Part shown: positions 1 to 15,650 of the stretch, piece by piece
Position numbering within the stretch: position 1 is the first letter of the stretch
Layout: the number at the start of each line of letters is the position of its first letter
Assembly (NCBI GenBank): GCA_021204025.1
Contig: JAJQAC010000046.1
Location: forward strand, 1-35,612
Origin: Clostridiales bacterium
GTDB lineage: Bacteria > Bacillota > Clostridia > Lachnospirales > Lachnospiraceae
Length of the DNA stretch: 35,612 nucleotides
Reading direction: 5' to 3'
The notes under the pieces: model-generated
What the model was told of the DNA's origin: nothing
The model's input: the letters and a program-made list of their open reading frames with translations, nothing else
The model's database searches: none
Translations under genes and position numbers: made by a program

Positions 1-6405
<6,405 letters not shown>

Positions 6406-6685: not shown

Positions 6686-8356
6686 GTGAGCATCCTGGAA
6701 AATAAGAAAATGCCGGTTGGCATAGAAGATTTCAAAGAAGTTATTACGCGGGATTTCTATTATGTTGATAAGACGGGAATGATAAAAGAACTTCTGAGAG
6801 ACTGGGGCAAGGTAAATCTTTTTACCCGCCCGCGCCGATTTGGTAAGAGTATGAATATGAGCATGCTCCGGCGGTTCTTTGAAATTGACACAGACAAGAG
6901 TCTGTTTGACGGTCTGGAAATCTCAAAAGATACGGAATTATGTGAAAAACATCTGGGACAGTATCCGGTAGTAGCTATATCGTTGAAACAGGTAAGCGGA
7001 AAGTCTTATGAAGAAGCTGTGGAAAATCTCAGGGATGTGATTAAGACAGAAGCCCGACGGTTTTCCTGTTTGCCGGAAAGCGATAGGCTGGATCCGGAGG
7101 ATAAAGAAGATCTGAAAGATATACGAAGAGGGAAGGGTCTTATCGACAGCAGTATTTATCATTTATCCCGACTGTTGAGTATGCACTATAATAAAAAGGT
7201 CATTATTCTGATTGACGAGTATGATGCTCCGCTTCAGAAAGCCTATGAAAACGGATATTATGATGATATGGTACGTTTGATCCGGCAGATTTTTGGTTAT
7301 GCTTTTAAATCAAATCAGTTTTTATATTTTGGTGTTCTGACGGGCTGCATGCGGGTTTCCAAAGAAAGTCTCTTTTCAGACTTAAATAATCCGACGTTAT
7401 ATACACTGGTAGACGATATGTGTGATGAGTGGTTTGGATTTACGGATCAGGAAGTGAAACAACTGCTGAATGATCTGAATCTTGGCGAATATTACGATAT
7501 CACGAGAGACTGGTATGACGGATATCGCATTGGAAGCACCGATATTTACTGTCCATGGGATGTTATAAACTGGTGCAGACAGCTTTTGCTGTCGTCGGAT
7601 CCGGAGCCGAAAAATTATTGGGTAAATGTCGGCGAAAATAATATAGTATATCGGTTTGTTGAAATGTCGGATGACAATACACGCTATGATCTTGAAGTCC
7701 TGTCAGAGGGAGCTTCTGTCGATAAGGCTTTGTCTTTCGAATTGACCTATAAGGATATCTATAGTGGGATTGATAACCTCTGGAGCGTTCTGTTTACGAC
7801 AGGATATCTTACTCAGCGTGGACGAAATAAGGACGGGACGTATCGTCTTGCGATTCCCAACCGCGAGATCCGGCATGTGTTTGCAGAACAGATCCAGAAG
7901 TGGTTTTTGATGAAAATCGAAGGAGGTTTGCAGGGGCTTTACAGAGCTTTCGATGTCGGCGATGCGCAAAGAGTGGAAAAATGTATTAACGATTGTCTGA
8001 AAGAATCCATTAGTTTTATGGATGGCGGTAATACCGATAAGCAGAGAGAGGCCAGTTATCATCTGATGCTTGTAGGTATGGCGCAGGGACATTCCGGCTG
8101 GATTGTGAAATCAAACAGAGAAGCGGGAAAAGGAAGAGCAGACATCATTATCATTAATCGTATGAGAAATGATGGTATCGTCATTGAAGTCAAATATACA
8201 GATAACGAAAAAAAAATGCAGGAGAAGGCAGAAGAAGCCTGTCGGCAGATCAAAGACAGGAATTATGAGGATTATTTCGTTGGATTTCGGATTCACAGGG
8301 TAGATGAGTATGGGATTGCTTTCAGTGGAAAAGAATGTAAGGTCAGGAAATGCTAA
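6686..8356 (+). CDS. AAA-ATPase-like / PD-(D/E)XK nuclease-like protein (DUF1703 type)
   Basis: A 556-residue protein of the family pairing an N-terminal AAA-ATPase-like domain (PF09820 type) with a C-terminal PD-(D/E)XK nuclease-like domain (PDDEXK_9 type). Visible features are the P-loop-like RPRRFGKS at residues 48-55, a Walker B ILIDEYD at 174-180, and nuclease residues D486, E501 and K503 in D-x14-E-V-K, with Q521 further on. The family is abundant and patchily distributed in gut Bacteroidetes and Clostridia. Its function is unproven; a defence or mobile-element role is often suspected. The GTG start has GAGGG close upstream; an ATG nine codons later, just before PVGIEDF, is an alternative. 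It stands alone, with its own promoter and operator-like repeat, consistent with cargo acquired as a unit. Confidence 0.85.
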   Translation: MSILENKKMPVGIEDFKEVITRDFYYVDKTGMIKELLRDWGKVNLFTRPRRFGKSMNMSMLRRFFEIDTDKSLFDGLEISKDTELCEKHLGQYPVVAISLKQVSGKSYEEAVENLRDVIKTEARRFSCLPESDRLDPEDKEDLKDIRRGKGLIDSSIYHLSRLLSMHYNKKVIILIDEYDAPLQKAYENGYYDDMVRLIRQIFGYAFKSNQFLYFGVLTGCMRVSKESLFSDLNNPTLYTLVDDMCDEWFGFTDQEVKQLLNDLNLGEYYDITRDWYDGYRIGSTDIYCPWDVINWCRQLLLSSDPEPKNYWVNVGENNIVYRFVEMSDDNTRYDLEVLSEGASVDKALSFELTYKDIYSGIDNLWSVLFTTGYLTQRGRNKDGTYRLAIPNREIRHVFAEQIQKWFLMKIEGGLQGLYRAFDVGDAQRVEKCINDCLKESISFMDGGNTDKQREASYHLMLVGMAQGHSGWIVKSNREAGKGRADIIIINRMRNDGIVIEVKYTDNEKKMQEKAEEACRQIKDRNYEDYFVGFRIHRVDEYGIAFSGKECKVRKC

Positions 8357-8379
8357 GGGAGAGATTGACGACGCCAGAA

Positions 8380-8397
8380 CAGGATATTCCTATCCTG
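8380..8397 (+). terminator. Weak terminator-like hairpin after the ATPase gene
   Basis: CAGGATA and TATCCTG form a perfect 7-bp stem around TTCC, 24 bases after the stop. The following ACTTAATTT is only moderately T-rich, so termination would be inefficient. Confidence 0.35.
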
Positions 8398-8439
8398 ACT
8401 TAATTTACACAGGAAAACCGGATTCTTTCAAAATTTTTG

Positions 8440-8468
8440 TTTACTTTTAAACTTTAAAGTGATACTAT
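8440..8468 (+). promoter_or_regulatory. Promoter of the YerC-like regulator
   Basis: TTTACT (8440-8445), a 17-base spacer and TACTAT (8463-8468) lie about 60 bases before the start codon. Confidence 0.45.
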
Positions 8469-8527
8469 GTTTCTTGGATTCAATGGATGTTATTGGATAC
8501 ATAGGTGATTGTCTTTGAACGGAGGGT

Positions 8528-8833
8528 ATGAGATTGGCAAGAAGAGTCCGGAAAGAACATGTGATGGAGATGTATGAAGCGATCCTGAAGCTGAATTCTG
8601 TGGAGGAATGTGTAAATTTTTTTGAAGATCTGTGTTCGCCGACGGAAATATCCGCGATGGAACAGCGGTATGCGGTTGCGGATCTGTTATTAAAGAATAC
8701 CGTGTATCTGGATATCCTTGAGAAGACAAAGGCGAGCACGGCCACCATCAGCCGGGTGAATCGGATGGTAAACAGCGGAACCGGCTGTCTGCCGCAGGTG
8801 ATCAAGCGTGTAAACCGGGAAAATCAGGTATAA
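8528..8833 (+). CDS. TrpR/YerC-YecD family DNA-binding protein
   Basis: A 101-residue, all-helical small regulator of the Trp-repressor-like YerC/YecD family. The helix-turn-helix core is seen as DILEKTKASTATISRVNR near residues 66-84, preceded by the FFEDLCSPTEI block that marks the family. Length matches the roughly 100-residue norm. The ATG at 8528 has GGAGGG only one base upstream; a TTG at 8534 lies seven bases from GGAGGG and would give better spacing and a product two residues shorter, so the start is uncertain. YerC-like proteins are poorly characterised regulators and do not respond to tryptophan by default. Its position directly before a palindrome-controlled gene makes local regulation possible, but this is inference. 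Confidence 0.85.
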   Translation: MRLARRVRKEHVMEMYEAILKLNSVEECVNFFEDLCSPTEISAMEQRYAVADLLLKNTVYLDILEKTKASTATISRVNRMVNSGTGCLPQVIKRVNRENQV

Positions 8834-8884
8834 TTGTTATAAATTGAACAAAATTCTCATCAAAACTTTACAGTTTCTTGTCTT

Positions 8885-8911
8885 GAACACGCCTTGATTC
8901 AAGGCGTGTTC
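8885..8911. promoter_or_regulatory. Perfect 27-bp palindrome overlapping the -35 box of the acyl-activating megaenzyme
   Basis: A 13-base arm starting GAACACGCC (8885-8897), a central T at 8898, and its exact complement ending at 8911. The -35 hexamer (8894-8899) sits in the middle. There is no T-tract after it, so it fits an operator better than a terminator of the upstream gene, although the RNA could also fold into an 11-bp hairpin. Confidence 0.65.
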
Positions 8912-8922
8912 TATGTTATAAT
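8894..8922 (+). promoter_or_regulatory. Promoter of the adenylation-carrier-condensation gene
   Basis: TTGATT (8894-8899), exactly 17 bases, and a perfect TATAAT (8917-8922). The start codon is 63 bases downstream, with AGAGGAGAGG as ribosome binding site. Confidence 0.65.
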
Positions 8923-8985
8923 CCCGATTTGAACAGATTGCTGACGAGTGTTGAAAAACACGTTTTTTAAAAGAGGAGAGGAAAA

Positions 8986-11900
8986 ATGATATTGTACGAG
9001 AACACGAAGACGGTTTACGATCTGATCTCTCGCGCGGAAGTGGAGTACCGGGACAAGGTGTATCTGCGGTACGAAGCAAATGGGGTTGTATTTGATGTGA
9101 CCTATCAGCAGTTTGCCCTTGAATGCAAGGCAATGATGGCATGGTATACGGACAGCTGCAAAAAGGCAGGACGTAAGATCAAGATCGGACTTATGGGAAG
9201 CGCCAGTCACCAGTATCTGGTGATGCTGCTGGGCGTGATGGCCGCAGGCGGTGTTGTGGTTCCTCTGGATATCCAGATGAACGTTGAGACATTTGCCGAC
9301 TGTGTGAACCGTTCCGATATTGATCTTTTATTTTATGACTGGAAGCATCTCGCGCTGGTCCGGGGGATGCGGGAACAGTGCCCGAACTGTAAAGGCGTCT
9401 TTTCCATGCAGCACGGTTTTCACGTACCGTGCTTTGACAACATTATGTCCGGTTATATCGGCCGCAGCGTGGAGCCGGAGATCTCCGAGGATGATCTGGC
9501 GATGATTCTCTTTACATCCGGGACAACCGGCAGAGGAAAGGGCGTCATGCTTTCCCAGAGAAATCTGATTGATAATACATTTTCCAATACGGATGAGTAT
9601 GCAAAGAATGAGGTTTATCTGAATATCCTGCCGATTCATCATGTATTCTGCATTAACGGAGACATTCTCCCGGTTATGCGATATGGCGCGACGGTCTGCT
9701 TAAACGGAGAGATGTCGCAGCTGGCGGCACATATTCAGGTATTTCAGCCGTCCGCGATCCGTATGGTTCCGATGGTGGCAAAATCCCTTTATAACCGGAT
9801 CGCGCTTCTGAGCAGACAGGATCGCACGCGCTCGATCAATGAGATTCGCTCAGAAGTACTGGGAGGTCATTTGCATCGGATTATCTGCGGAGGAGGATAT
9901 CTGACGCCTGAACTGGCGGCCAATTATCAGCGCCTGGGTATCTCCATCGCGCAGGGTTACGGGATGTCAGAATGTTCTCCGGTTATCTCTGCCGTAGACT
10001 GGAAGCGTCCGGATAAAGTGGCTTCAGTAGGTAAGATTGTTGACCGGTGTGAGGTACGGATTGTAGACGGAGAGATTCAGGTGAAGAGCCCGTCCGTCAT
10101 GATGGGATATTACAAGGAACCGGATAAAACGGCAGAGGCGATCACAGAGGATGGGTGGCTCTGCACCGGAGATCTGGGATATGTGGATGACGAGAATTTC
10201 CTGTATCTGACCGGGCGTAAAAAGAACCTGATCATTATGAGCAACGGGGAAAATGTCGCTCCGGAGGAGATTGAGAATCTCTTTACCGATGATCAGCTGA
10301 TAGAGGAGATTCTGGTATTTGGCGAAGATGATCAGATTACGGCGGAAATCTATCCGAACAATAAATATGCACAGGCAGCCGGGATTCAGGATATCCCGGG
10401 TGTGATTAATGAGATTGTCGGCAGGCATAATGACAGTCTTCCTACCTATAAGCGTATCATGAAGGTGCGTCTGCGTGATGTTCCGTTTGAGAAGACTTCT
10501 TCAAAAAAGATTATCCGCAGCCAGTACTTTACGCAGAAGAAGAAGGAAGAGGACGAGCTTGCGAAGGTGAAAAAGCCGGAGACCGAACTTCAGACCCGGA
10601 TCTATCAGTGTGTGGAGGGTGTGCTTGGACATTCGCGCTTTGGTATCGATACGGATCTCTATGCGGCCGGACTTGACTCGATGGGCAGTGTGCTTTTGAT
10701 CGGAGATCTGCATGATCAGATGAATGCGGAGATCACCCTGGCAGAACTGATGGAAAACGCGAGTGTGGAGAAGCTGGAAGCCTTTATCCAGAACAGCCAT
10801 GACAAACCGGAGGTCGATTATACAAAGCAGGATGTCTATCCGCTGACCGGGCTTCAGACCTATTTTGCTTATGTGATGCAAGGCAATACCACCGCGAATC
10901 TGCCATTCTTCTTTAAGCTGGATCCGTCCGTGGAGCTGGAGCGTCTGAGTCAGTCGATCGGAGACCTTTGTGACGTTCATCCGGAATTAAAGGATATCAT
11001 CCAGAAGGAGGATGGAGTATATAAGAACTTCCGTCATGATGAAGTCCGGGTGGAGATCCCGATTACGCGGATGAGCGATGCCGACTGGGCAAAAGAGAGA
11101 AAGACGCTATTAAAACCTTTCCTGTATAAAGACAATGAGCCGCTGTACCACATCGGAATTTATCAGACCGATTCGGCAAATTATCTGTACTTCGACGTCG
11201 CGCATATTATCGGCGACGGAATGACGATGAACGTGCTCTTTGAAGATCTGAACGCACTGTATATGGGCAAAGAGGTGAAAAAGCAGGATTATACCTATTA
11301 TGAGTATATCCTGGATGAGAAAGCAAGAGAGTCGACCGGCGAGCGCCAGAGGAATATTGAGTATTTTGCAGATCTGATGAAAGATTTCCGCATTAAAAAA
11401 TCGATCCTGACGCTGAAAAACAGCTATGATCTGAAAAAAGGGCATAACGCAGCGGTACATAAGAGACTTTCCGGTCTGAATAAGCGGGACGTGCTTGCAT
11501 TCTGCAAGAAATACGGAGTATCCGAAAATGTCATGTTCCTGACGGCATTTAATTACTGTATCGGTATTTTCAGCAATGAGGATGATACAATCAGCACCAG
11601 TATTCACAGCGGGCGTACAGACAGCCGCTGGAACCGCCTGGCGGGACCTCTTTTCCTGACCTATTTTTACCGTTATACCCGGATCCATCATGAGACGGTG
11701 CCGCAGCTGCTGAAGCGGAGCGGGAGACAGATCATGGAGACGATGCAGTGTCATATCTCTACGCTTCATGCAGATGAGATGTTCTTCCAGTATCAGGGAG
11801 ATATCCTGAATATTGATGAGATCGGCGGGGCACCGGCGGAGCGCCAGCAGATTCAGCTGGATTCGCTTCCGTTCCATCTGATGGTGATGTCTGACAGGCA

Positions 11901-12585
11901 GGGATATTATTATGAGCTCCGTTATTGGGAAAATCGTTTTGACGCGGAGCAGCTCAAGATCTTTATGATCTGTTATGAGACTATTGTTGAGGCAATGCTG
12001 GAGGAGCGTTCCGTGCGCCGTCTGAAAGAACATCTGCCGATTACCGTATATCCGCTTCATTATATGACAACAGCGGGACGTCTGAATGCCGAGGCCAACC
12101 ATGATCTGATTGCTGATGTCGGAGCGGACGAACCGATTAAGGTTTATGTGTTCAATAAGGATTATCGTAAGCAGCCGTTTGGCGCCTGGGGCGAACTTTT
12201 TATTCTGGATCATCCGGCGTCAGGATGGATCGATAAGATCACAAATCCTTATGGAAAAGGGATTCTTTACCAGACCGGCCGCACCGCGCGGATCCTGCCG
12301 AACGGCAATATTGAGATCCTTGAGAATGCAGGACGCATGGTGATACGTGAGAGTGTACGGGGCCGGGATTTCCTGGATCTGAACAAGCTAGAATGTGCTT
12401 TGCTCGAGTATGGCGGTATCAAACGCGCAGAGGCTTATGTCAGCTACTCAGAGGCAAATCAGCTGGTTCTGTGCGCGGACGTCTACGGAGACGGTACGAT
12501 TAAGGAAGAACCACTTCAGGAATATATTAAGGAAGAACTGGGCGAGACGCTTGTGCCGGCTAAGTGCAATATATATAAAGAATAG
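8986..12585 (+). CDS. Orphan NRPS-like enzyme: acyl-activating A domain, carrier, condensation, C-terminal A remnant
   Basis: A 1,199-residue cytosolic assembly-line enzyme. Residues 1-510 form an AMP-binding domain (LFTSGTTGRGKG at 175-185, GYGMSE, YLTGRKKN) most like acyl-CoA or acyl-ACP ligases. A carrier domain follows, with the phosphopantetheine serine at S565 in GLDSM. A condensation domain (about 617-1030) carries AHIIGDG with H740, D744 and G745; the first His of HHxxxDG is Ala, but the catalytic second His is kept. Residues 1049-1199 match only the late part of an adenylation domain (GELFI, YQTGRTARILPNGNIEIL), with no core A3-A5 motifs. No release, thioesterase or reductase domain is present, and no phosphopantetheinyl transferase is nearby. 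Inference: it activates an acyl or amino acid, loads it on its own carrier, and condenses it with a free amine or a partner-bound acceptor. The product is unknown. Confidence 0.85.
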   Translation: MILYENTKTVYDLISRAEVEYRDKVYLRYEANGVVFDVTYQQFALECKAMMAWYTDSCKKAGRKIKIGLMGSASHQYLVMLLGVMAAGGVVVPLDIQMNVETFADCVNRSDIDLLFYDWKHLALVRGMREQCPNCKGVFSMQHGFHVPCFDNIMSGYIGRSVEPEISEDDLAMILFTSGTTGRGKGVMLSQRNLIDNTFSNTDEYAKNEVYLNILPIHHVFCINGDILPVMRYGATVCLNGEMSQLAAHIQVFQPSAIRMVPMVAKSLYNRIALLSRQDRTRSINEIRSEVLGGHLHRIICGGGYLTPELAANYQRLGISIAQGYGMSECSPVISAVDWKRPDKVASVGKIVDRCEVRIVDGEIQVKSPSVMMGYYKEPDKTAEAITEDGWLCTGDLGYVDDENFLYLTGRKKNLIIMSNGENVAPEEIENLFTDDQLIEEILVFGEDDQITAEIYPNNKYAQAAGIQDIPGVINEIVGRHNDSLPTYKRIMKVRLRDVPFEKTSSKKIIRSQYFTQKKKEEDELAKVKKPETELQTRIYQCVEGVLGHSRFGIDTDLYAAGLDSMGSVLLIGDLHDQMNAEITLAELMENASVEKLEAFIQNSHDKPEVDYTKQDVYPLTGLQTYFAYVMQGNTTANLPFFFKLDPSVELERLSQSIGDLCDVHPELKDIIQKEDGVYKNFRHDEVRVEIPITRMSDADWAKERKTLLKPFLYKDNEPLYHIGIYQTDSANYLYFDVAHIIGDGMTMNVLFEDLNALYMGKEVKKQDYTYYEYILDEKARESTGERQRNIEYFADLMKDFRIKKSILTLKNSYDLKKGHNAAVHKRLSGLNKRDVLAFCKKYGVSENVMFLTAFNYCIGIFSNEDDTISTSIHSGRTDSRWNRLAGPLFLTYFYRYTRIHHETVPQLLKRSGRQIMETMQCHISTLHADEMFFQYQGDILNIDEIGGAPAERQQIQLDSLPFHLMVMSDRQGYYYELRYWENRFDAEQLKIFMICYETIVEAMLEERSVRRLKEHLPITVYPLHYMTTAGRLNAEANHDLIADVGADEPIKVYVFNKDYRKQPFGAWGELFILDHPASGWIDKITNPYGKGILYQTGRTARILPNGNIEILENAGRMVIRESVRGRDFLDLNKLECALLEYGGIKRAEAYVSYSEANQLVLCADVYGDGTIKEEPLQEYIKEELGETLVPAKCNIYKE

Positions 12586-12605
12586 ATAAAAGAAATACAA
12601 GAGAC

Positions 12606-12643
12606 AAAAAGGTCCTGCTGAATATATGGCAGGATCTTTTTAT
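12606..12643 (+). terminator. Intrinsic terminator of the megaenzyme gene
   Basis: A-rich AAAAAG, GGTCCTGC and its near-perfect complement GCAGGATC (one G-T pair) close into CTTTTT, about 20 bases after the stop codon. Confidence 0.8.
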
Positions 12644-12654
12644 TCCATAGGAAA
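12635..12654 (+). repeat. 20-base sequence shared with the pta terminator region
   Basis: TCTTTTTATTCCATAGGAAA occurs here and, on the opposite strand, at 33021-33040. In both places it starts in the T-tract of an intrinsic terminator. A CCATAG/CTATGG inverted pair (12645-12650 and 12697-12702) bounds the next 50 bases. This suggests an interspersed intergenic element; genome-wide copy number is needed to prove it. Confidence 0.5.
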
Positions 12655-12744
12655 TGCGCCTGAGTGCGTTCTTTGTTCTTTTATGCATACGGACGGCTAT
12701 GGAAATTTTGCTGCTGGCATTGTCTCTTACTCGGTCAACCTTCG

Positions 12745-12756
12745 GCAAACGTTTGC
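12745..12756. promoter_or_regulatory. LacI/PurR-type operator palindrome
   Basis: GCAAACGTTTGC is a perfect 12-bp palindrome with a central CG, identical to the core of the enterobacterial PurR box and typical of LacI/GalR-family and CcpA-related sites. It lies 42 bases before the -35 box of the ABC operon. Confidence 0.55.
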
Positions 12757-12760
12757 AATC

Positions 12761-12797
12761 TTTAATACTTTAAATTATTATAAATTGAAGCATTAAA
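12761..12797. promoter_or_regulatory. AT-rich imperfect palindrome next to the ABC-operon promoter
   Basis: TTTAATACTTTAA (12761-12773) faces TTGAAGCATTAAA (12785-12797), with 11 of 13 positions complementary. It ends one base before the -35 hexamer. It could be a second regulator site or a UP-like AT-rich element. Confidence 0.35.
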
Positions 12798-12798
12798 A

Positions 12799-12827
12799 TT
12801 GACTTGGATAAGAAAAAGTTGTATAGT
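12799..12827 (+). promoter_or_regulatory. Promoter of the ABC transporter operon
   Basis: TTGACT (12799-12804), a 17-base spacer and TATAGT (12822-12827). The start codon follows 53 bases later, behind AAGGAGG. Confidence 0.7.
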
Positions 12828-12880
12828 AAATGAAACTTTTGAAAAACCCGATCATGGGGATATAAGGAGGATAATAGTTT

Positions 12881-13945
12881 ATGAAAAAACAATTCGCATG
12901 CGCGGCGCTTGCCGTTTCCATGGTGATGATGACAGCCTGCGGCAGCTCTTCGAGCTCAACGGAGACGACCGCAGCCGTAACGGAGGCAGCGACTGAGGCT
13001 GCAGCAGGAGAAGAGAATGAGGCAGAAACAGAAGCAGAGACAGCGTCTGAGGAAGCGGCGTCTGATGTGACCTATCGGGTAGGTATCTGCCAGCTGGTGC
13101 AGCATGACGCTTTGGATGCGGCGACTCAGGGATTTCGCGATGCGCTGACAGAGGAACTGGGTGATGCTGTGGAGTTTGACGAGCAGAACGCGCAGGGCGA
13201 TTCGAATACCTGCTCGACGATCATCAACAGCTTTGTATCTGCGGATGTTGATCTGATTATGGCGAACGCGACTCCGGCGCTGCAGGCGGCGCAGGCCGGT
13301 ACTAATGAGATTCCGATTCTGGGAACTTCTGTTACCGAGTATGGAGTTGCGCTGGGAATCGATGATTTTGACGGCCTGGTTGGAACAAACATTTCCGGTA
13401 CGTCCGATTTGGCTCCGCTCACTGAGCAGGCGGCGATGCTTCACGAACTGTTCCCGGATGCCGAAAAAGTGGGTCTGCTGTACTGTTCGGCAGAGGCAAA
13501 TTCACAGTATCAGGTGGATACGGTGAAGGTTGCCCTGGAAGAACTGGGTTATACCTGTGAGTATTATGCGTTTTCTGATTCGAACGATCTGTCCACAATC
13601 TGTACGAAGGCTGCTTCTGAATCAGATGTGATCTATGTCCCGACTGACAATACGGTTGCGGCTAACACAGAGATTGTGAATAATATCTGTCAGCCGGCAG
13701 GCGTCCCGGTGATTGCCGGTGAGGAAGGGATCTGCTCAGGATGTGGTGTGGCGACTCTTTCCATCAGCTATTACGATCTGGGCGTGGCAACCGGTAAGAT
13801 GGCGGCAAAGATACTGACCGGCGAGTCCAAAGTCGAGGAGATGCCGATCGAATACGCGCCTCAGTTTACCAAGAAGTATAACGTCACGATCTGTGAGGCT
13901 CTTGGCGTTGAGATTCCGGATGATTATGTTGCTATTGAGGAATAA
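12881..13945 (+). CDS. ABC transporter substrate-binding lipoprotein (TrpX-like, ABC_sub_bind family)
   Basis: A 354-residue extracellular lipoprotein. A signal peptide ends in the lipobox MTAC with the lipidated C20, followed by a Ser/Thr/Ala/Glu-rich tether to about residue 64. The mature fold begins at YRVGICQLVQHDALDAATQGF and belongs to the PF04392-type periplasmic-binding family, which includes TrpX. It delivers a ligand to the permease and ATPase encoded next, whose genes follow by 2 bases and by a 1-base overlap. In streptococci the related TrpXYZ system is linked to tryptophan and controlled by a T-box; no T-box is visible here and a LacI-type palindrome is upstream, so the substrate may differ. 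Family assignment is strong; the substrate is not known. Confidence 0.88.
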   Translation: MKKQFACAALAVSMVMMTACGSSSSSTETTAAVTEAATEAAAGEENEAETEAETASEEAASDVTYRVGICQLVQHDALDAATQGFRDALTEELGDAVEFDEQNAQGDSNTCSTIINSFVSADVDLIMANATPALQAAQAGTNEIPILGTSVTEYGVALGIDDFDGLVGTNISGTSDLAPLTEQAAMLHELFPDAEKVGLLYCSAEANSQYQVDTVKVALEELGYTCEYYAFSDSNDLSTICTKAASESDVIYVPTDNTVAANTEIVNNICQPAGVPVIAGEEGICSGCGVATLSISYYDLGVATGKMAAKILTGESKVEEMPIEYAPQFTKKYNVTICEALGVEIPDDYVAIEE

Positions 13946-13947
13946 GA

Positions 13948-14853
13948 ATGACTAGTTTGCTGAATGCTCTGCCCGGTGCGGTGGCACAGGGCCTGATTTG
14001 GGGGATCATGGCGATCGGGGTCTATATCACGTATCGCATCCTGGATATTGCGGATCTGTCTGTGGACGGGACCCTCGGCACTGGAGGGGCAGTGTGCATC
14101 ATGTTGATGCTGTCCGGTCAGAATGTGTGGGTGGCGATGCTGGGCGCGCTGATCGCCGGTATGATCGCTGGTTTTGTGACCGGCTTTTTACAGACTTTTA
14201 TGGGGATACCGGCGATTCTTGCCGGTATCCTGACACAGCTTGGTCTGTATTCGATCAATTTAAAGACGATGGGTAAGGCCAATCAGGCGATCAATGTAGA
14301 TAAATATGATCTGCTGATTTCTCTTCGTTTTATTAAGGGAGTATCTCTTTTTAAAAATACGATTTTTTTTGTTGCAGTGATTATTCTTTGCCTGATTATC
14401 CTGCTTTACTGGTTTTTCGGCACAGAGCTTGGATGTTCGTTGCGTGCAACCGGATGTAATGAACGCATGGCGAGAGCGCAAGGAATTAATACCGATTTGA
14501 ATCGTGTACTGGGGCTGATGCTGTCGAATGGCCTGGTGGCATTTTCCGGTGCGCTGCTTGCTCAGTATCAGGGGTTCGCGGATGTCAACATGGGCCGTGG
14601 CGCGATTGTCATCGGACTGGCGGCCGTAATTATCGGAGAAGCCATTTTTGGCCGTATTTTCCACAATTTTGGCCTGACGCTTCTGGCGGTGGCGCTGGGT
14701 TCGATTATTTACTACCTGGTGCTGCAGGTAGTGATCTGGATGGGTATTGATACCGATCTGTTAAAACTCTTATCTGCTGTCGTCGTGGCGATCTTCCTGG
14801 CGATTCCGACCTGGAAATCCCGTTATCTCGATGGATTAGGAGGGAAGCGCTGA
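13948..14853 (+). CDS. ABC transporter permease (TrpY-like, branched-chain type)
   Basis: A 301-residue integral membrane protein with about eight to nine hydrophobic segments. It contains DLSVDGTLGTGGAV near the N-terminus and a GCSLRATGCNERMARAQGIN loop, typical of the permeases paired with TrpX-like binding proteins and related to the LivH/BPD_transp_2 family. It begins 2 bases after the stop of the binding-protein gene, and its TGA overlaps the ATG of the ATPase gene, showing translational coupling. It forms the translocation path for the ligand of the upstream lipoprotein. A single permease gene is present, so the channel is expected to be a homodimer. Confidence 0.88.
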   Translation: MTSLLNALPGAVAQGLIWGIMAIGVYITYRILDIADLSVDGTLGTGGAVCIMLMLSGQNVWVAMLGALIAGMIAGFVTGFLQTFMGIPAILAGILTQLGLYSINLKTMGKANQAINVDKYDLLISLRFIKGVSLFKNTIFFVAVIILCLIILLYWFFGTELGCSLRATGCNERMARAQGINTDLNRVLGLMLSNGLVAFSGALLAQYQGFADVNMGRGAIVIGLAAVIIGEAIFGRIFHNFGLTLLAVALGSIIYYLVLQVVIWMGIDTDLLKLLSAVVVAIFLAIPTWKSRYLDGLGGKR

Positions 14854-15650
14854 TGCTGGAAGTAAAGAACATCAAAAAGACTTTTAATAAAGGGACAGTA
14901 AATGAGAAGCAGGCTCTTCGCGGTGTCAATATTTTGTTGAATGATGGTGATTTCTGTACCATTATCGGTGGCAATGGCGCCGGTAAGTCAACGTTTCTGA
15001 ATGCGATTTCCGGTGTGTGGCCAGTCGATGAAGGAGAGATCCGGATCGATGGCAGGGATATTACGCGTCTTCCGGAATATAAACGGGCAGCTTTTCTGGG
15101 CCGGGTTTTTCAGGATCCGATGACAGGCACCGCGGCGACGATGGGGATCGAAGAAAATCTTGCGCTCGCGTTTCGGCGTGGAGGCAGACGGACGCTACGT
15201 GCCGGTATTACGGCGAAGGAACGGAAGTTTTATGAAGAGCAGCTGGCCAGGCTGGGATTAGGATTGCAGACGCGCATGACCAGCAAGGTGGGTCTTTTGT
15301 CCGGCGGGCAGAGACAGGCGCTGACGCTTCTGATGTCAACCCTGAAGCGGCCGAAACTGCTTTTGCTGGATGAGCATACGGCAGCTCTTGATCCGAAGAC
15401 GGCCAGGAAGGTGCTGGATCTGACGAACGAGATCGTTCAGGAGCAGAAGCTGACTGCGTTGATGGTTACTCATAACATGAAAGACGCGATTCAGATGGGA
15501 AATCGCTTAATTATGATGCATGAGGGTACGATCATCTACGATGTGGCCGGGGAAGAAAAGAAAAGCCTGACGGTAGAGGATCTTCTGCGTAAGTTTGAGG
15601 AAGTCAGCGGCGAGGAATTTGCGAATGACCGGATGATGCTGGCGAGATAA
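14853..15650 (+). CDS. ABC transporter ATP-binding protein (TrpZ-like)
   Basis: A 265-residue cytoplasmic ATPase. Visible motifs are Walker A GNGAGKST (residues 40-47), the signature LLSGGQRQ, Walker B LLLLDEHTAALDP and the switch histidine in MVTHNMKD. The DEHTAALD variant (His in place of the usual Pro after DE) is, from memory, common in this transporter subfamily. It powers import by the preceding permease and lipoprotein. It ends the operon, and a long inverted-repeat element starts 13 bases after its stop. Confidence 0.9.
   Translation: MLEVKNIKKTFNKGTVNEKQALRGVNILLNDGDFCTIIGGNGAGKSTFLNAISGVWPVDEGEIRIDGRDITRLPEYKRAAFLGRVFQDPMTGTAATMGIEENLALAFRRGGRRTLRAGITAKERKFYEEQLARLGLGLQTRMTSKVGLLSGGQRQALTLLMSTLKRPKLLLLDEHTAALDPKTARKVLDLTNEIVQEQKLTALMVTHNMKDAIQMGNRLIMMHEGTIIYDVAGEEKKSLTVEDLLRKFEEVSGEEFANDRMMLAR

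Follow-up and report, generated by a model that had tools for sequence, protein, structure and literature searches.

The window analysed here, 35,612 nucleotides from a Clostridiales bacterium of the Lachnospiraceae (contig JAJQAC010000046.1, assembly GCA_021204025.1), carries at positions 8986..12585 on the forward (+) strand a gene for a protein of 1,199 amino acids with the domain order adenylation (A), carrier (T), condensation (C) and truncated adenylation (A*). Based on the open reading frame (ORF), Pfam matches and 75 homologous loci, it was classified as a candidate N-acyl amide synthase. Our preferred reading, to which we assign a probability of about 0.58, is that this single protein is a fatty-acyl amide (N-acyl amine) synthase in which release happens when the C domain transfers the acyl chain to a free amine, and in which the A* remnant aids folding. 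An N-acyl amine formed from a soluble amine had been proposed in an earlier annotation made from the sequence (the original prediction), and we infer the same product. The donor would be a fatty acid, the acceptor a free amine, and A* would act as a scaffold.

Domain architecture and conservation of the A-T-C-A* protein

The ORF is a single frame of 1,199 codons with zero internal stops, and Pfam matched AMP-binding (residues 21-376), AMP-binding_C_3 (414-520), PP-binding (538-601) and Condensation (614-920). The acyl-activating A domain (residues 1-525; 8986..10560, +) was assigned by Pfam, tree, motifs and fold match to the acyl ligases of fatty acid amide (FAA) systems. Its resemblance to acyl ligases, stated in the original prediction, was borne out by an A tree with FAA ligases and by a fold search with the whole-protein model, in which it matched acyl-/aryl-CoA ligases. 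It is followed by the T domain (10597..10788, +; Pfam, alignment) with Ser565 in the motif GLDSMG and by the C domain (residues 612-1030; 10819..12075, +; Pfam, alignment, trees) with His740 in the motif AHIIGDG. The A* tail (residues ~1048-1199; 12127..12582, +), recognised by PDB sequence search, alignment and model, comprises the barrel part and the C-terminal subdomain of an adenylation domain. Within the 1,199-codon frame no T domain, thioesterase (TE) or reductase follows A*, which agrees with the release domain already reported missing, and Pfam detected no acceptor carrier protein inside the protein. A complete C-A-T module, as in canonical elongation by nonribosomal peptide synthetases (NRPSs), is not present: motifs A1-A5, the A7 aspartate and A10 are absent and a second T domain is missing.

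For the homologue search that had been recommended as a check, a contig collection was scanned; it yielded 202 relatives, of which the best 80 were kept, corresponding to 75 distinct loci. This count is a lower bound because only the best 80 were retained. The protein of ~1,200 amino acids thus occurs at at least 75 loci, mostly with record titles of Lachnospiraceae or other Clostridia; a few titles from outside Clostridia or outside Lachnospiraceae (Bacteroidales L084, Coriobacteriaceae L094, Oscillospiraceae L093) are unchecked labels of metagenome-assembled genomes. The window and the 75 loci were aligned (76 rows), and 67 rows are full length, while the other nine lie at contig ends or have interrupted or partial frames. 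All 67 full-length rows keep Ser565, His740, Asp744 and Gly745, so that the two residues described as intact (S565 and H740) are family-wide features, as are two elements of the first A domain, its A3 core TSGTTGxxKG and Lys508. The C motif reads [A/G/S/C]HxxxDG in 67 of 67 rows, its position 1 never being D or H. A full-length copy was present in 7 of the 200 genomes of a family sample, and in a phylum sample of 398 genomes only the window's own protein passed E 1e-100; the distribution is therefore patchy and centred on Lachnospiraceae. The domain order had been called unusual and the enzyme an orphan; the order is a fixed family architecture and not peculiar to this genome.

The tail was identified by comparison with solved adenylation domains. 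Residues 1026-1199 alone gave zero Pfam matches at E values up to 1, and a phmmer search against PDB placed residues 1016-1199 on the later portion of adenylation domains from NRPSs (LgrA 6mfy, whole-sequence E 9.1e-12; SrfA-C, 3.1e-10; TycB, 6.8e-8). Added to an NRPS A-domain alignment, the tail lines up with positions 308-471 of an A domain of 483 residues, which leaves it without motifs A1-A5 and without the A10 segment with its lysine, so that only the late adenylation part is kept, as predicted; Pfam, PDB search and this alignment together confirm the A-T-C-(late A) order in one intact frame. The A7 aspartate is replaced (D at position 1099 in 0 of 67 full-length rows). The window's tail stops before A10, and in 61 of 67 rows 15 or fewer residues follow P1191, below the 16 needed to reach the A10 lysine. 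Five further rows end within 19 residues of P1191, giving 66 of 67, and L089 is the exception with 119 residues; where a row runs on for over 15 residues beyond P1191 (six rows), inspection by eye showed no lysine at the A10 distance of 16. The A* tail is under purifying selection: among 41 pairs computed, 25 of which are listed, the ratio of nonsynonymous to synonymous substitution rates (dN/dS) for the window versus L035 was 0.029 for the whole gene and 0.03 for the tail.

Structure prediction, likewise recommended for the tail, was carried out with AlphaFold. The whole-protein model reached a predicted local distance difference test (pLDDT) score of 88.9 and a predicted template modelling (pTM) score of 0.84. 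Because the A domain filled the fold search with this model, C and tail were modelled separately (pLDDT 93.0, pTM 0.91), with the barrel predicted to be docked on C. Superposition of C plus A* barrel with VIA-align covered 481 residues at 3.9 Å for LgrA 6mfy, 471 at 4.1 Å for BmdB 7ly4 and 456 at 3.6 Å for Txo1 6oyf; C alone superposed at 2.6-3.7 Å over ~350-406 residues. Since C and barrel superpose jointly on solved C-A structures, the remnant is predicted to dock on C roughly where the A domain sits in such platforms. The odd tail looks like a retained non-working piece of adenylation domain, a scaffold rather than damage.

Relation to fatty acid amide synthetases and other amide-forming systems

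Gut Clostridia are reported to make fatty acid amides via a three-protein A/acyl carrier protein/C system (PMC13142362, citing Chang et al. 2021). OaaA/OaaACP/OaaC of Coprococcus eutactus is such a discrete FAA synthetase, and the motif of FAA C domains is given as (D/H)HxxxD(S/A, less often G) (Singh, Grant and Gulick preprint, PMC13142362). In the 200-genome family sample, 29 single-A matches at E 3.1e-91 or better were listed and 20 of their regions fetched. Nineteen of these (L110-L128) are C-T-A gene trios, with ligases ~36-42% identical to the window's A domain and the C motif xHxxxDA in 17 of 19 and xHxxxDS in 2 of 19; they match the FAA clusters as described in PMC13142362. The twentieth region (L129:4522-7464) encodes an A-T-R protein, in which an FAA-like ligase is joined to T and to a reductase domain of the NAD-binding type, a possible maker of fatty aldehydes or alcohols.

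In the A tree, 19 fused rows and the 19 FAA-cluster ligases grouped together (Shimodaira-Hasegawa-like approximate likelihood ratio test 90, not starred), and together with six other ligases they formed a 44-row acyl-ligase clade with support 99 (starred); the fused A domain thus belongs to the FAA ligase group. The C domains were placed in a quick tree of 78 sequences and a careful tree of 49 sequences with long branches removed, subtypes being labelled by gene position only, without reference sequences. FAA C domains stood beside the first (starter) C domains of NRPSs, while the fused C domains formed one clade within the elongation C domains of Lachnospiraceae NRPSs. In the careful tree the fused clade received 100/100 and FAA plus first C domains 100/99; the deep fork on the FAA side was weak (69) in the quick tree, before long-branch removal. 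An FAA ancestry of the fused C domain was rejected, as constraining fused and FAA C domains together gave p 0.0049 in the approximately unbiased test (p-AU). Because A groups with FAA ligases and C with NRPS elongation C domains, the enzyme appears to be a chimera of an FAA-type loading half and an elongation C-A half whose A has been cut down. The amine specificity of FAA systems cannot be transferred to the fused enzyme, because its C domain lies outside the FAA clade. The group nearest to the fused C clade (87 in the quick, 93/81 in the careful tree) comprises the C domains of L143, L144 and L145, which are stand-alone A-T-C proteins of ~980-1,000 amino acids with NRPS-type A domains and no tail.

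Compared with the Oaa-type FAA synthetases, the fused enzyme shares a related acyl ligase, an acyl carrier as donor and the lack of an acceptor carrier in the protein and of a TE; also, the first His of the C motif is absent in 67 of 67 fused rows and in 17 of 19 trio C domains. It differs in being one protein instead of three free-standing ones, in its elongation-type C domain, whose motif ends in DG where the FAA C clade ends in DS or DA, and in its A* tail. Position 1 of the fused motif is A, G, S or C, and the (D/H)HxxxD(S/A) pattern is thus not found. Judged from sequence, the enzyme would work like an FAA synthetase, yet its C-domain ancestry, its motif and its organisation set it apart from the discrete Oaa family. 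In vibriobactin synthesis, VibE, VibB and VibH as A, T and C jointly acylate a free amine, but these are separate proteins that use an aryl acid and have no A*.

The termination module of the glidonin synthetase GdnB, C13-A*-T13-TE, has an A* without the N-terminal core, and C13 joins free putrescine to the residue carried by T12 (PMC10587159). A12T12C13 was insoluble and A12T12C13A* soluble; the authors of that study conclude that A*T13 stabilises the protein (PMC10587159). GdnB A12-T12-C13-A* has the identical domain order, and in both proteins a C domain is followed by an A domain that keeps its C-terminal part without the N-terminal core. The preferred reading takes over from GdnB the release by C13 onto a free amine and the need of A* for soluble protein (PMC10587159). 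The differences are that GdnB ends a 13-module peptide line, that A12 loads alanine and not a fatty acid, and that T13-TE follows A*, whereas 66 of 67 fused rows end near P1191 and L089 continues into SCP2. The claim of an undescribed gut metabolite pathway is, in the broad sense, unsupported, because a three-protein FAA system in gut Clostridia (PMC13142362) and A-T-C-A* release onto a free amine in glidonin synthesis (PMC10587159) have already been reported. For an FAA synthetase in one protein whose C domain has another ancestry, no description was found in the literature, judged largely from titles and the openings of abstracts, with Chang et al. 2021 outside that coverage.

A link to lipid handling comes from L089:5366-5722, where the 119-residue C-terminal extension of the A-T-C-A* homologue is an SCP2 domain (Pfam E 3e-9). 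In 14 of 19 FAA loci a homologous SCP2 gene stands on its own upstream of C-T-A (e.g. L115:2156-3482). That SCP2 is fused in L089 and a separate gene in FAA clusters suggests a shared kind of product for both systems, and the fusion makes a lipid carrier a likely partner of FAA clusters; in the OaaC preprint (PMC13142362) the terms SCP2, sterol and lipid transfer are absent. In L110 and L115, the two loci inspected closely, an alpha/beta-hydrolase gene lies between SCP2 and C, with homologues in 17 of 19 FAA loci. Near the 75 fused loci no linked SCP2 gene was found besides the fusion in L089, and alpha/beta-hydrolase neighbours were limited to two weak ones (L038 and L070).

Proposed mechanism and alternative readings

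In the proposed reaction, a phosphopantetheinyl transferase (PPTase) would load the phosphopantetheine arm on Ser565; a PPTase candidate of 247 amino acids is encoded in the window's genome, and an ACPS match was present in 7 of 7 genomes carrying the fused gene. The N-terminal FAA-type ligase would adenylate a free fatty acid with ATP and pass the acyl group to the T arm. A freely diffusing small amine would then attack the acyl thioester in the C domain, via His740, and no TE would be needed because amide formation doubles as the release step. The non-adenylating A*, docked as a scaffold, would keep C folded and cover part of the face that normally lies under the A domain.

Several observations weigh against this proposal. 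The fused C domain falls outside the FAA clade (p-AU 0.0049). In the glidonin precedent, A12T12C13A* was unstable after thawing, T13 mattered too, and some product formed with A12T12 alone, in the absence of C (PMC10587159). The SCP2 extension occurs in only 1 of 67 rows, no SCP2 match was obtained in the window's genome, and the crude gene calls revealed no decarboxylase, exporter or similar gene as a conserved neighbour. Regarding the scaffold role, adding the last A* subdomain lifts the root-mean-square deviation to 5-6.5 Å, and the tail subdomain 1113-1199 is the most variable (median identity 0.39 over 1111-1199). Tail dN/dS was 0.3-0.5 in 7 of 8 listed L105 pairs, with whole-gene values there of 0.15-0.36, and reached 0.48 for the tail subdomain of L096/L099, on a dS of 0.08. 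Also, besides the three carriers in the window's genome that reach PF00550 (the fused T and two beside fatty-acid-synthesis genes with PlsX-type and KAS III Pfam matches), a fourth, free-standing carrier-like protein of 92 amino acids is encoded on contig 66 and scores 20.6 bits (cut-off 20.8). It belongs to a small NRPS-like group (L161:1876-7181) of an AMP-binding protein, a transporter, the carrier-like protein and an AMP-binding plus nitroreductase fusion, with no C domain nearby; it leaves room for an acceptor carrier in trans.

Elongation-type C domains, from which the fused C domain descends, usually take aminoacyl groups as acceptors, which would suit an N-acyl amino acid synthase with the same chemistry but an amino acid instead of a biogenic amine as free acceptor. 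FAA C domains, though of a different C lineage, exclude amino acids according to PMC13142362, and we regard this variant as unlikely. The normal T-C order of elongation, the further C domains in four fused-gene genomes (G135, G052, G023 and G101) and the carrier-like protein, whose two AMP-binding neighbours include the nitroreductase fusion, would also fit transfer of the acyl chain to a partner NRPS or aminoacyl carrier in trans. However, the contig-66 carrier is unlinked to the fused gene, two other carriers adjoin fatty-acid-synthesis genes, and in three of the seven fused-gene genomes (G067, G188 and the window's, which is 98.5% complete) the C domain of the A-T-C-A* protein is the sole one, and such transfer is in our view rather improbable.

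Acylation of an alcohol, or of a protein or lipid amine, in place of a small soluble amine has in its favour the lipid handling suggested by the L089 fusion and the fact that some members of the C-domain superfamily form esters. Nothing specific in the sequence points to it, and both the C-A* precedent and FAA systems are documented to use free amines (PMC10587159, PMC13142362), which makes it quite improbable. A decaying remnant of a larger NRPS with its second module lost, to which a truncated A domain without catalytic motifs might otherwise point, was rejected as scarcely credible: with 67 of 76 rows full length, 66 of these sharing nearly one end point within 19 residues of P1191, invariant catalytic residues and purifying selection (dN/dS 0.029, window versus L035), there is no sign of frameshifts from a deleted full module, and the gene is not a simple recent wreck, as the original prediction had held. 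The one-protein N-acyl amine synthase stays our preferred reading.

Flanking sequences and wider meaning

Upstream of the gene, a promoter-like TTGATT-17-TATAAT with TG before the -10 element (8894..8922, +) was found by consensus match only; in 8300-12900, 7 promoter-like sites were found versus 7.7 expected from shuffles. A 27-nt palindrome (13+1+13; 8885..8911, +) overlaps the -35-like hexamer and is a possible operator, based on sequence and on comparison with L035, where it is kept except for the central base; of the 59 loci examined, the other 58 do not show its sequence in the 220 bases upstream. Neighbours were compared using longest-frame picks as gene calls, with many flanks short. 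Among the 25 gene clusters listed as occurring in at least 4 loci, a single cluster contains a neighbour from the window, the ABC ATPase 14853-15650 (23 loci, scattered positions); the window's other neighbours are shared with L035 only, and nucleotide similarity to L035 begins only at 8391. A Trp-repressor-like gene (8528-8833) lies just upstream and was displaced by an opposite frame in the gene calls used for conservation. Just downstream follows a TrpX-like ABC uptake operon (12881-15650), whose TrpX-like binding protein scored 229.8 bits (equivalog cut-off 390). A connection to tryptophan or tryptamine is possible but unproven; it was set aside as evidence because the downstream genes 12881-14853 have relatives in L035 only. 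Further upstream, 262-6405 encodes a surface protein of 2,047 amino acids that carries leucine-rich repeats of the BspA type as well as choline-binding repeats.

Taken further, the protein may represent a second, independently assembled class of gut FAA synthase, in which an FAA-type ligase and carrier were joined to an elongation C domain, which brought with it and retained, as a scaffold, an inactive fragment of the A domain it once had. Such a class, present in at least ~70 mostly Lachnospiraceae-type genomes and making N-acyl amines with possible activity on host receptors, is a tentative proposal that we rate at slightly less than even odds. As a single protein with a built-in carrier, the enzyme would be an easy system for studying how a C domain comes to accept a free amine in place of an acceptor bound to a carrier, and it would also be suited to asking what a leftover adenylation fragment does for the C domain. 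If the preferred reading is true, a whole amide-forming pathway would reside in one solitary gene, possibly overlooked by cluster-based searches, and many gut species would join the possible makers of endocannabinoid-like lipids, molecules able to mimic human signalling lipids.

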